Below, in pieces: positions 18,131 through 22,458 of a stretch of DNA of 25,276 nt. The DNA is from a virus. Both the position numbers and the translations under genes were made by a program. The notes beneath the pieces are model-generated. The model was not told where the DNA came from. It did no database searches and worked only from the letters and a program-made list of their open reading frames with translations. The first letter of the stretch is position 1. Each line of letters opens with the position of its first letter. Where the stretch lies: positions 1-25,276 of the IMG/VR virus record IMGVR_UViG_3300020205_000160; one strand, written 5' to 3'.

Positions 18131-18564
18131 GCCTTGACGATCACCCGCTTGATTTCCCTGAACTCTAGGGGTGCACCATCAGCGCCGGTCACCTCATGCT
18201 TCTGGGTCTCGGCCCAGCGCATCTGGGTCTTGCTCCACCAGATCGCTGCGGTGGTGTCGCCTGCCATTACTTTCTGGAAAAGGGTTTTCCCTACCTGCCC
18301 ATTGGCCTTGGCCTTGCCAGAAACCAACTCAGTGGCAAAGTGAGCGCGGAGGGTGTCAACGTGGATGCCCTCGCGCACCAGCACGGCGATCTGCTCAATG
18401 GGCAGGCCGTAGCCAGACAGGGCTTCCACCTGTTTACGCTCGGCAGCAGTGGGTTCAAAGGCTGGCCGGCCAGCGCCTGGCATTGCGCCGCCAGTGCCTG
18501 GTCTAGCACCTCCGTGCTTTTTAGGAACTGGTTTTTCTTCAAGTTTTGGCTTCTTAGTTGCCAT
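18127..18564 (-). CDS. terS: Putative terminase small subunit
   Basis: 145 residues from ATG at 18564 with SD GGAGG 5 nt upstream; the frame opens further to 18708 but there it runs through the Mom-like gene. The N-terminus is basic with Gly/Arg/Pro repeats (GGARPGTGGAMPGAGRP), similar to the starts of many small terminases. A helix-turn-helix-like segment follows (GLPIEQIAVLVREGIHVDTL, then RAHFATEL). The C-terminal part KVMAGDTTAAIWWSKTQMRW, then AETQKHEV, is common in phage proteins placed just before TerL. It would recognise the packaging site and regulate TerL. The call rests on position, size and the HTH. Confidence 0.75.
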   Translation of the reverse strand: MATKKPKLEEKPVPKKHGGARPGTGGAMPGAGRPAFEPTAAERKQVEALSGYGLPIEQIAVLVREGIHVDTLRAHFATELVSGKAKANGQVGKTLFQKVMAGDTTAAIWWSKTQMRWAETQKHEVTGADGAPLEFREIKRVIVKA

Positions 18565-19243
18565 GTGTAACCTCCGCGAAAGGTTCTGATTTCTGCGATG
18601 TTTGGAGCGTGTCGGTCGGTACTGCCCCGCCCAGCTCTGAAGGGTATTCAGAGTCCTGCTTTTTGACACGCATGGGATATGGCTTTGCCAATTGTTGAAT
18701 TTTATCATTCATCATCTTGTCAAGCGGCATCAAGTATCTGTGCTTTCCTGCCACAACTTTTTTGGGCAGATTGGTTTGATCCACTCCAGCATCATCCACT
18801 GTCTTTTTGTGTGACCATTTTCCCTTATAAAAAACTTTGACAGCTTTATCACTTGGGCCTGTATAAATCCAGTTGCATGCCTGATAAATTCCACCATGAT
18901 GCCCTTGTTCTGGGTCAGCATAAGAAACTATGAGCTTGAGGCCAGGCTGGGATTTCTTCAAGAATCTGATGGCGACTGCCATGATTTTGCTCACTGGCGT
19001 GGAATGCTTTGTCAGTGCAATCCTGACCAACTCACAGCCATCGTCCTGTTCCAAGCCAAAGGGCTTGAGCATGTTGTTGTTGGCTCCACGACCAAAAATA
19101 ACAACACCAATAAACTTTGAATCTTCCCAAACCCCAACTTTGACCAACTTCCCAGCAGGCACACACCGACTGTAGTGCCAGTTTACGCAGGCATATTTCG
19201 CAGCCTCATGACTTGCCCAGTCGATTTTGAGTTCAGGCTTCAC
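18554..19243 (-). CDS. Mom-like DNA adenine hypermodification protein
   Basis: 229 residues from GTG at 19243, preceded by AAGGAA; the frame also has an ATG at 19336, but that start would overlap the ParB-like gene by 104 nt and add 31 residues before the conserved region. Landmarks are WHYSRCVPAGKLVKVGVW (22-39), IGVVIFGRGANNN (45-57), CELVRIAL (70-77), VSYADPEQGHHGGIYQACNW (106-125). These match the phage Mu Mom family, GNAT-like proteins that convert adenine in DNA to a carbamoylmethyl form and protect against restriction. It overlaps TerS by 11 nt, so modification is made with the packaging genes. Family call is strong; that it modifies adenine here is inference. No Com-like regulator was seen. 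Confidence 0.85.
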   Translation of the reverse strand: MKPELKIDWASHEAAKYACVNWHYSRCVPAGKLVKVGVWEDSKFIGVVIFGRGANNNMLKPFGLEQDDGCELVRIALTKHSTPVSKIMAVAIRFLKKSQPGLKLIVSYADPEQGHHGGIYQACNWIYTGPSDKAVKVFYKGKWSHKKTVDDAGVDQTNLPKKVVAGKHRYLMPLDKMMNDKIQQLAKPYPMRVKKQDSEYPSELGGAVPTDTLQTSQKSEPFAEVTHGN

Positions 19244-19751
19244 GGGAATCAAATTCCTTGCCGCAGTGTGGGCAGGCAATCCACTTTGGATCAAGCTGAT
19301 CCAGCTTTCCTTGGTCTTGCTCAGTGCCTGGTTCAAAGTCTGGTGTCTGCAGTGCTTGGATTTCTTCAGCCTTGAATCCAGTCAGGTCGAGGTCAAACCC
19401 CAGATCACCAATCTCGCCCAGCTCGAGCGCCAGCATCTCGTTGTCCCATCCAGCATTCATAGCCAGCTTGTTGTCGGCCAGTACATAGGCCCGTTTCTTG
19501 GCCTCTGACCAGCCCTTGGCCACCATGACTGGCACCTCGGTCATTTGCAGGCGCTGTGCGGCCAATGTGCGGCCATGGCCGGCAATGATGCTTCCCTGCT
19601 CATCGACCAGGACAGGAGTTGTCCAGCCCCATTCTTTGATGCTGGCTGCTAGCTGGCTGATCTGCTCGTCAGAGTGAGTTCGTGCGTTTCGGGCGTATGG
19701 GATGAGCTTGTCAATGGCCCACTTTTCAACTTTGTCGGCAGGATTTATCAA
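19233..19751 (-). CDS. ParB/Srx-fold domain protein with C-terminal CxxC
   Basis: 172 residues if it starts at TTG 19751, which overlaps the stop of the small exported ORF (TTGA) with a GAGG upstream; an ATG at 19808 would give 191 residues but has no SD, so the start is uncertain. The core VEKWAIDKLIPYARNARTHS, then EQISQLAASIKEWGWTTPVL, GSIIAGHGRTLAAQRL and VPVMVAKGWSEAKKRAYVLA, DNKLA is the ParB N-terminal domain found in phage and MTase-linked ParB-like proteins. The C-terminus ends CPHCGKEF, a small zinc-knuckle-like motif. It overlaps Mom by 11 nt. It may guide DNA modification or packaging, or act as a nuclease; none can be shown from sequence. Confidence 0.85.
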   Translation of the reverse strand: MINPADKVEKWAIDKLIPYARNARTHSDEQISQLAASIKEWGWTTPVLVDEQGSIIAGHGRTLAAQRLQMTEVPVMVAKGWSEAKKRAYVLADNKLAMNAGWDNEMLALELGEIGDLGFDLDLTGFKAEEIQALQTPDFEPGTEQDQGKLDQLDPKWIACPHCGKEFDSREA

Positions 19752-19897
19752 AACCCGCCGCCTCGGGTGGTCGTGCAAGTCACACTGCCATCCCAATTTC
19801 TGACGCATTTTGTCGTCGTCTGTGCTTCGGCTGTAAAAGACAGCAGAAACCCAGCTGCAAAAGACAGCAGCAAAGCGATTGTGATTAGGGTTTTCAC
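19748..19897 (-). CDS. Small exported protein (49 aa) with signal peptide
   Basis: 49 residues from GTG at 19897 with SD AAGGAG 6 nt upstream; stop TGA at 19748. The N-terminus KTLITIALLLSFAAGFLLSF is a short basic start plus hydrophobic core and is followed by TAEAQ, a type I cleavage site (A-E-A before Q). The predicted mature peptide, about 24 residues, has two Cys (C31, C41) and reads TTTKCVRNWDGSVTC, so a disulfide in the periplasm is possible. The hydrophobic core contains an 8-residue duplication (LLSFAAGF / LLSFTAEA). It directly follows a terminator and overlaps the ParB-like start. Function unknown; superinfection exclusion or envelope modification are guesses. Confidence 0.7.
   Translation of the reverse strand: MKTLITIALLLSFAAGFLLSFTAEAQTTTKCVRNWDGSVTCTTTRGGGF
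19830..19870. repeat. Direct repeat, 17 bp, period 24
   Basis: gctgtaaaagacagcag at 19830-19846 and gctgcaaaagacagcag at 19854-19870 differ by one base. The repeat encodes the duplicated hydrophobic segment of the small exported protein. Confidence 0.85.
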
Positions 19898-19908
19898 GGT
19901 TACTCCTT

Positions 19909-19928
19909 AAAAAAGGGGCCGAAGCCCC
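19909..19928 (-). terminator. Intrinsic terminator, UUCG tetraloop
   Basis: On the minus strand GGGGC-TTCG-GCCCC is followed by six T, a textbook rho-independent terminator with a very stable tetraloop. The SD of the exported protein starts right after the T-run. It separates the DNA-metabolism genes on its right from the ParB/Mom/terminase/virion genes on its left, so it likely marks the early/late boundary and would require read-through or antitermination for late expression unless a promoter lies within it. Confidence 0.8.
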
Positions 19929-19944
19929 AAAAGCTGGCAACTGC

Positions 19945-21166: not shown

Positions 21167-21425
21167 TTCGCTGCCTGTTCATTTCGGTGGTCAAGGTAAC
21201 GACTCCAGCCTGGCCACGCCGTTTTTTTATGTCCAGCTTCACACCTTCCCACCAGGCCAGTGCTTGCTGTTTCCCAGCTTGCTTCTCTTTCAATCGGTAA
21301 CGCTTCAGCCATTCCCTCGCCTCGGTCTGACGCAAGGTCTCCAGCATCGCAGAGCGCTCGGTTGATGTCAGCAAGGCTAAATTCTTGGCCTTCCCGTCTT
21401 CTGTCCAGTAGGGATTTGTGGTCAT
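21141..21425 (-). CDS. Conserved phage helical protein (94 aa)
   Basis: 94 residues; ATG at 21425 overlaps the methyltransferase stop by 4 nt. The core REWLKRYRLKEKQAGKQQAL, then AWWEGVKLDIKKRRGQAGV, matches a short phage family I have seen with conserved REWL..Y, A-W-W and RGQ; no function known. A competing frame from GTG 21432 to 21163 lacks these features and was rejected. It overlaps the RusA start by 26 nt, so translation is probably coupled. Likely nucleic-acid associated, given its basic charge and neighbours. Confidence 0.75.
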   Translation of the reverse strand: MTTNPYWTEDGKAKNLALLTSTERSAMLETLRQTEAREWLKRYRLKEKQAGKQQALAWWEGVKLDIKKRRGQAGVVTLTTEMNRQRNDANSLSS

Positions 21426-22231
21426 ACGTCACTTAAGATTCTCCATGCTGTTGCTGCACACAATGGGACTTGTCCGTTTCCAATGGCTTTAAGTCTGTCC
21501 ACCCTAGCGGCCACCCCATCAGCCACTCTACCCACGTTGGGTTCAGCCTTCCACCAACTTGCGCCGCCAAAGTCGGCGTGTTTCTGTTTAATTCGCTGGG
21601 TGCGTTTGTTTCCTTCGAATTGTGTGCCGTTGGTGTCGGCCATAGGTTTTTTCTTGCCATTAATGCTAGTGTCGGTCTCTGCTTTGAACTTCCCACCGAA
21701 GTATTGAACCTCCCGCTTCCTGAATCTATGCTGCAAGGTGTCGGTAGCAACAAGCCAGAATCTGTCCCGTTGGTGATTTGCTTCAACGTCGGCAGCTCCC
21801 AGCACTGTCCATCGGCAGTCATACCCGAGCGCGGCCAAGTCACTGAGGACAACTCCAAGTCCTCGAGTAAGGAGAGCTGGGCTGTTTTCCACAAATGCAA
21901 ATCGGTGTCGTACTTCGCTAATGATGCGCGCCATTTCAGCCCACATTCCGCTGCGCTTTCCTGTGATTCCTGCCCCCCCCCCAGCAACTGAGATGTCTTG
22001 GCATGGAAACCCGCCAGATACAACGTCAACAATTCCTCTCCACGGTTTTCCGTCAAAGGTTTGTACGTCATCCCAAATCGGGAAAGGCGGGAGAAGCCCG
22101 TCATTTTGTCGGGCGCACAGTACGCTTGCTGGATACGGCTCCCACTCAACGGCGCAGACTGTTCGCCACCCAAGGAGGTGTCCCCCAAGTATTCCTCCAC
22201 CAGCGCCTGCGAAAAGAGCCAACTCATTCAA
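21422..22231 (-). CDS. DNA (cytosine-5) methyltransferase
   Basis: 269 residues starting at TTG 22231; no ATG is available because a TGA lies a few codons upstream and motif I begins at residue 5. Motifs: I LFAGAGGG (6-13), IV GGFPCQDIS with catalytic C77, VI ENS (115-117), VIII HQRDRFWLV (153-161), X AIGNGQVP (249-256). The target-recognition region (about 165-235) is short; M.HhaI has 327 residues. SD GGAGG is only 4 nt from TTG. A 264-codon open frame overlaps almost the whole gene in the +1 frame, and a run of ten G (21973-21982) lies in it. It is an orphan methyltransferase, with no restriction gene nearby, and probably protects phage DNA. Confidence 0.9.
   Translation of the reverse strand: MNELALFAGAGGGILGGHLLGWRTVCAVEWEPYPASVLCARQNDGLLPPFPIWDDVQTFDGKPWRGIVDVVSGGFPCQDISVAGGGAGITGKRSGMWAEMARIISEVRHRFAFVENSPALLTRGLGVVLSDLAALGYDCRWTVLGAADVEANHQRDRFWLVATDTLQHRFRKREVQYFGGKFKAETDTSINGKKKPMADTNGTQFEGNKRTQRIKQKHADFGGASWWKAEPNVGRVADGVAARVDRLKAIGNGQVPLCAATAWRILSDV
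21433..22227 (-). CDS. Overlapping ORF in the +1 frame of the C5-methyltransferase gene
   Basis: 264 codons from ATG 22227 to 21433, lying wholly inside the methyltransferase gene. The perfect SD AGGAGG is 8 nt before this ATG but only 4 nt before the methyltransferase TTG. The peptide has recognisable segments such as SRLSRFGMTYKPLTENRGEE, SSVTWPRSGMTADGQCWELP and NPTWVEWLMGWPLGWTDLKP. I recall similar sequences, including MSW-start and PRxGM-type stretches, as unnamed entries near phage methyltransferases. The similarity could be a by-product of conservation of the methyltransferase frame. Trp/Pro/Ser-rich, no domain known. Whether a protein is made is unknown. Confidence 0.45.
   Translation of the reverse strand: MSWLFSQALVEEYLGDTSLGGEQSAPLSGSRIQQAYCAPDKMTGFSRLSRFGMTYKPLTENRGEELLTLYLAGFHAKTSQLLGGGQESQESAAECGLKWRASLAKYDTDLHLWKTAQLSLLEDLELSSVTWPRSGMTADGQCWELPTLKQITNGTDSGLLLPTPCSIDSGSGRFNTSVGSSKQRPTLALMARKNLWPTPTAHNSKETNAPSELNRNTPTLAAQVGGRLNPTWVEWLMGWPLGWTDLKPLETDKSHCVQQQHGES
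21973..21982. repeat. Homopolymer run of ten C (ten G in the coding strand)
   Basis: The run follows the PCQDIS motif of the methyltransferase and encodes AGGGA. In the overlapping frame it encodes LGGG. It is the only homopolymer of this length that I noticed in the window. Its length keeps the methyltransferase frame intact. Confidence 0.9.
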
Positions 22232-22458
22232 AATGCCTCCTCGTCATCTTGCCAATGTTGCACTGGAGGCTTTAGGGCTGCTTCAACAATGCTTCGCTTC
22301 GCGGCAAATTTCCCACCAGACCACTTGTGAGCTGAACAAAAAGCTGGCTCACCGTCCATTCGCACCGACCATCGCTTGCCGCAGCCTGCAACACTGCACA
22401 TCAGGTGGTCTGCGTCCGAGGTTGGTTGCTCTTGTTTTTTCCAGTTTTCAAGTGCCAT
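22228..22458 (-). CDS. Small Cys/His-rich protein, probable zinc binder (76 aa)
   Basis: 76 residues; ATG at 22458. The middle carries MCSVAGCGKRWSVRMDGEPA followed by FCSAHKW, i.e. C-x4-C then C-x2-H, a small zinc-ribbon-like pattern common in short phage proteins. The ends are charged. The stop overlaps the methyltransferase TTG start (TTTTGA), so it supplies coupled translation to the methyltransferase and to the overlapping ORF. It overlaps the DUF1376 gene by 11 nt. Function unknown; nucleic-acid binding is likely. Confidence 0.75.
   Translation of the reverse strand: MALENWKKQEQPTSDADHLMCSVAGCGKRWSVRMDGEPAFCSAHKWSGGKFAAKRSIVEAALKPPVQHWQDDEEAF

Follow-up and report, generated by a model that had tools for sequence, protein, structure and literature searches.

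Two overlapping reading frames in phages and bacteria very probably encode the two polypeptides of one C5-cytosine DNA methyltransferase

In a virus record of 25,276 nucleotides (IMG/VR record IMGVR_UViG_3300020205_000160, positions 1 to 25,276, referred to as G000; this whole 25-kb stretch is called the window), we found a segment of 0.8 kb which, judging from sequence comparisons, very probably encodes, in overlapping frames, the two polypeptides of a single C5-cytosine DNA methyltransferase. The first, alpha, is the C5-cytosine methyltransferase catalytic subunit (21422..22231, minus strand, 269 aa, TTG start) and contains motifs I-VIII and X. The second, beta, is the product of an ORF in the +1 frame (21433..22227, minus strand, 264 aa, ATG start) and most likely serves this two-polypeptide enzyme as target-recognition/motif IX subunit. 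The same two-frame arrangement is present in hundreds of phages and bacteria, in which usually one gene is annotated.

The beta ORF lies completely inside the alpha ORF, its ATG being located 4 nt past the first base of alpha and its stop codon 11 nt ahead of the alpha stop codon. These coordinates agree exactly with a preliminary description of this DNA, in which two long same-strand frames, a methyltransferase and a 264-codon +1 ORF, had been noticed on the same 0.8 kb. The frames were also called co-terminal there, which holds in so far as the stop codons are near each other in relatives, at a spacing that is not fixed. A Shine-Dalgarno-like GAGGAGG (22236..22242, minus strand), read from the sequence and putatively functional, is situated 4 nt upstream of the alpha TTG and 8 nt upstream of the beta ATG. 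Because a single Shine-Dalgarno-like site precedes both starts, which are no more than 4 nt apart, both chains could come from one mRNA.

Alignment places the alpha motifs, all on the minus strand, as follows: ELALFAGAGGG, known in C5-methyltransferases as motif I, at 22193..22225, motif IV with the catalytic cysteine (GGFPCQDIS) at 21989..22015, motif VIII (QRDRFW) at 21755..21772 and motif X (AIGNGQVP) at 21464..21487. Beta, on the same strand, contains a conserved core at residues 96-145 (GLKWRASLAKYDTDLHLWKT...WPRSGMTADGQCWEL, 21793..21942), a WPTPTA repeat-like motif (21625..21642) and a motif IX equivalent (LNPTWVEWLMGWPLGWTDL, 21490..21546), which occupies the motif IX position of single-chain relatives. 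The motif order on the DNA is thus the ordinary one (I-VIII, variable region, IX, X) and only the variable region and motif IX change frame; alpha motif X follows directly 3' of motif IX, yet in the other frame.

In database searches, alpha matched PF00145 (E 2.5e-29, residues 4-210) and phrog_363 (E 5e-65), and motifs I, IV (PCQ), VI (EN) and VIII were all found, with motif residues invariant in the alignment. No LxPRExxRLQGFP-like segment was detected in frame 0 between the variable region and motif X; this segment is in the +1 frame. Consequently, the preliminary description, which had credited the methyltransferase frame with all main C5-methyltransferase motifs, was right for I-VIII and X and not for IX, and since motif IX is absent from frame 0, alpha by itself falls short of a canonical monomeric enzyme. 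Beta matched phrog_1008 in a profile comparison (E 7.1e-27), and this profile hits overlapped, split and fused forms alike. Both PHROG families, 363 and 1008, are labelled 'DNA methyltransferase' and are entered separately, and the overlap is not recorded in the entries seen. Searches of beta against Pfam, NCBIfam and PADLOC gave no match, and a sequence search of the PDB gave no convincing one. The AlphaFold2 model of beta alone was poor (pLDDT 56), for which reason it was not used for fold search; residues 96-145 were better modelled (pLDDT of approximately 70-78 in the best blocks).

To what extent the alpha codons account for the open +1 frame was assessed with 83 distinct genes, drawn from 80 IMG/VR loci (found with the alpha query alone), 8 phage genomes (found by beta) and the window. 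A gene was considered open if its +1 frame contained no stop outside the last 16 codons, and the null was obtained by shuffling synonymous codons within each gene. The +1 frame proved open in 81 of the 83 genes, compared to 0.23 expected from methyltransferase codon use, the shuffle predicting 5.2 stops per gene, whereas the other same-strand frame (+2) was open in none of the 83. The exceptions were L025, with a stop near the 3' end, and L081, with a stop at codon 144. For the window gene, 3 out of 20,000 codon-permuted versions kept the +1 frame open. These permutation tests, which put the refuting condition named in the preliminary description to the proof, rule out a codon-usage artefact for the +1 frame. 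A beta HMM trained on bacterial loci only scored the real +1 frame above all of its 20 codon-shuffled versions in 82/82 genes (real median 337 bits, permuted mean 160 bits). Over codons 3-150, the overlapped family had an open +1 frame in 82/83 genes (2.6 expected), in contrast to 1/20 single-chain actinophage relatives (0.7 expected), in which 3.65 +1 stops were seen compared to 3.37 expected; in a small control set of canonical methyltransferases, none of 6 was open. As the single-chain relatives lose +1 openness, an open +1 frame accompanies alpha chains that lack motif IX.

Selection differs along the gene. In the variable region (21548..21739, minus strand; alpha codons 161-228), most divergence falls on the first codon position of frame 0, corresponding to the third position of the +1 frame, and pairwise overlap-aware counts gave a dNN/dSN of 0.99 for alpha and a dNN/dNS of 0.46 for the +1 frame, so that here the alpha frame is unconstrained and the +1 frame constrained. 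Both frames are constrained over codons 229-262 (0.18 each), and the +1 dNN/dNS of the motif IX segment (21490..21546) is likewise 0.18. Plain dNN/dNS was discarded as sole proof because the frame-0-only null is already below 1 (0.64), and weight was therefore placed on SN/SS, openness and the regional contrast. Changes that are silent in frame 0 but not in beta occur, in proportion to changes silent in both frames, about half as often as under the frame-0-only null (raw SN/SS 0.31 versus 0.56); dSS is saturated and dSN/dSS values are rough. Given this saturation and the phylogenetic non-independence of the sequences, we regard the selection counts as supporting and not as primary evidence. 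Together, the openness and the constraint in the variable region support the conserved overprinted protein proposed in the preliminary description.

The beta start site is conserved as well. At the +4 position, 145 of 171 loci have a start codon (ATG in 141, GTG in 4). Ten loci with CTT or TTT there (L016, L030, L051, L053, L056, L063, L071, L080, L082 and L094) have an alpha start six codons earlier, where other codons, read in another register, specify a new beta N-terminus resembling MSWLISKAL. Upstream beta N-termini were also read in L142 (MTWLFSRAL), L152 (MSWLMSRAL) and L162 (MTWYFSRAM). That M-S/T-W-x-x-S-x-A-L/M recurs in different registers has no easy explanation other than translation of beta from this start.

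Natural rearrangements provide the key to the identity of beta. Single-chain actinophage C5-methyltransferases (e.g. WillSterrel gp71) share the catalytic domain, the PTP repeats and an LNPxFxEWMMGWPxGW motif IX with the overlapped family, but have everything in one frame (I-VIII, PTP repeats, RLNPAFPEWMMGWPTGW, GNGVVPQQ) and do not keep the +1 frame open. Alignment with canonical methyltransferases puts their segment on motif IX (RLSPRECFRLQGFPDSF), directly ahead of motif X, and in a profile comparison the same segment matches beta with 97% probability. In the model of a single-chain relative, of which M.HhaI is the closest structure, the motif IX segment has a pLDDT of 93-96. ToneTone gp88/87, Cintron gp79/78 and SchoolBus gp6/5 are each annotated as two genes, alpha bearing I-VIII and beta bearing PTP, IX and X, with a +1-frame overlap of 26-209 nt. 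The alpha frame of Paraburkholderia L162 ends just after motif VIII and has many further stops, and its +1 frame, in which IX and X are both found, runs without a stop for about 500 codons. The presence of motif IX in beta and not in alpha, the fused and split relatives and L162 together make beta most likely the target-recognition/motif IX subunit. The overprinted protein of the preliminary description is accordingly conserved, and instead of an unrelated newcomer it most likely represents the half of the enzyme, with motif IX and target recognition, that alpha is missing.

A reverse search, in which one beta motif was run against genomes of bacteria and archaea, retrieved 80 loci, of which 79 have alpha one frame back, the remaining one (L159) having a 1-nt indel. 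They are found in Proteobacteria, Verrucomicrobia, Planctomycetes, Nitrospirae, Actinobacteria, Patescibacteria, Geothrix and an archaeal MAG. When alpha-based and beta-based loci were pooled, the C-terminal part of beta was in the +1 frame of the alpha domain in 173/175, the exceptions being a fused gene (L012) and the indel in L159; beta stands in another frame beside the alpha domain in all but one of the 175. One frame is broken in a few loci, namely beta in L081 and alpha in L084, L100, L135 and L152, some of which are possibly sequencing errors; beta is intact in L084, L100 and L152. In L135 (2497-2740, Microvirga), a stop replaces the glutamine after the PCQ cysteine in alpha while beta is intact; alpha may have decayed here, the stop codon may be suppressed, or the sequence may contain an error.

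A divergent second class from Enterobacteriaceae and IMG/VR viral contigs (L244-L323 and L224, L226-L240, L242-L243), in which alpha has YYNEIDPYAAQWLRNLI, shows the same +1 layout. Among 71 distinct genes of this class, retrieved from IMG/VR with the alpha query alone, the +1 frame is open from codon 40 in 66 (1.3 expected) and the motif IX pattern occurs in the +1 frame in 66; in the five genes that are not open, beta motif IX can still be read in the +1 translation. E. coli genomes searched with the divergent-class gene gave no match, and a search with the Salmonella phage gene matched 4 genomes. The Salmonella phage S9-5 version (L003, 2497-3231) occurs with 94.6% identity in the complete E. 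coli genomes PT62 and LP5-1. Most records viewed carry just one of the two frames as annotation, variously alpha or beta.

The window also encodes a Mom-family DNA modification protein (18557-19336, minus strand; PF25680, E 5e-45), so that this 25-kb contig carries, with the cytosine methyltransferase, two DNA modification systems of different kinds. ParB-like proteins are encoded near the alpha/beta genes of unrelated phages (window 19236-19940, minus strand; downstream in L152; ToneTone gp89, L206 1148-1504), and a functional link is possible.

C5-methyltransferases are composed of a large and a small domain. The small domain consists of the variable region and motif IX, and the large domain of motifs I-VIII and X (PMC3404938). 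In the proposed enzyme, alpha (frame 0) would supply the large catalytic domain, with the SAM site, the PCQ nucleophile, ENS, motif VIII and motif X, and beta (+1) would supply the small domain, with the variable target-recognition region and motif IX, and, as in M.EcoHK31I, the two chains would presumably come together to form the active enzyme. The variable region of alpha would then be a largely passive overlay, the small domain being that of beta. In a phage, the role of the enzyme would most likely be methylation of phage DNA against host restriction.

Three other explanations were weighed. The preliminary description had itself raised the alternative that the second frame looks conserved only because the methyltransferase codons are; the first 160 alpha codons are indeed highly conserved and GC-moderate, and alpha forces part of the +1 similarity, since permuted genes still reach about 160 bits with the beta HMM. 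That conservation of the alpha codons and protein is the whole explanation is nevertheless extremely improbable, being rejected by the permutation counts, by the HMM, in which real frames outscore all permuted ones, and by the single-chain relatives, which have a similar catalytic domain and do not keep the +1 frame open; moreover, the variable region is constrained in the +1 frame and not in alpha, and L162 kept beta where alpha was destroyed.

Beta could also be a real overprinted protein with a function of its own, e.g. a regulator or an anti-restriction protein, and no methyltransferase subunit, in line with its lack of a Pfam domain and with its N-terminal 95 residues, for which no counterpart was seen among the fused forms examined. 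We consider this unlikely, as the C-terminal part holds the motif IX that alpha lacks, is present at the expected place, either fused or split off, in other methyltransferases and accompanies the alpha domain in another frame in all loci except one. Still less probable is one chimeric chain produced by programmed frameshifting from alpha to +1 in place of two independent starts: although the canonical domain order on the DNA and the fused single chains of actinophages would fit, two frameshifts would be required to regain motif X in frame 0, the +4 start codon is widely kept and the MSWL N-terminus re-encoded in other registers, and +1 openness reaches the very start of the gene.

A two-polypeptide C5-methyltransferase has precedents. 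In M.EcoHK31I (YGGCCR), the ORF of the 176-aa small chain is located within the large-chain gene in another frame, a nesting that the window shares. However, beta of the window is longer (264 aa), begins 4 nt past the alpha start and covers nearly all of alpha, and the window gene belongs to a phage, with no restriction enzyme recognised in its vicinity. The motif layout is alike too, the large chain of M.EcoHK31I bearing I-VIII and X and the small chain only motif IX (PMC3404938), as do alpha and beta. Its predicted target-recognition domain was assigned to the large chain (PMC3404938), whereas the selection pattern here suggests the small chain. In M.AquI (CYCGRG), the enzyme is split after motif VIII into two chains, alpha and beta (PMC3404938), which the split actinophage genes and L162 resemble; IX and X are both on the small chain in M.AquI, as in L162, ToneTone, Cintron and SchoolBus, whereas motif X of the window is on alpha. 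The novelty anticipated in the preliminary description is therefore reduced by M.EcoHK31I and by phrog_1008, which already groups such +1 ORFs, while the near-complete 0.8-kb overlap, its spread over phages and many phyla and the series of overlapped, split and fused forms appear to be unreported; a limited literature search found no description of the phage two-frame overlap.

It is uncommon for two frames on one strand to overlap over a long distance with selection acting on each, and proof is difficult to obtain; this case can be tested since well over a hundred related sequences are available, in which the single-chain relatives serve as negative control and the split ones point to the function. 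We consider it reasonably likely that these genes form a large, ancient phage/prophage class in which nearly the whole gene, about 0.8 kb, is coding twice, the catalytic subunit being overprinted by the one for target recognition, with both frames under purifying selection across phyla, the N-terminal third of beta born by overprinting and databases usually listing one gene. If the two-polypeptide reading is true, numerous phage genes listed as 'DNA cytosine methyltransferases' would be unable to work in the form annotated, because alpha expressed alone would be without motif IX and the target-recognition region, and this would bear on failed methylase cloning, specificity prediction and studies of phage counter-defence.
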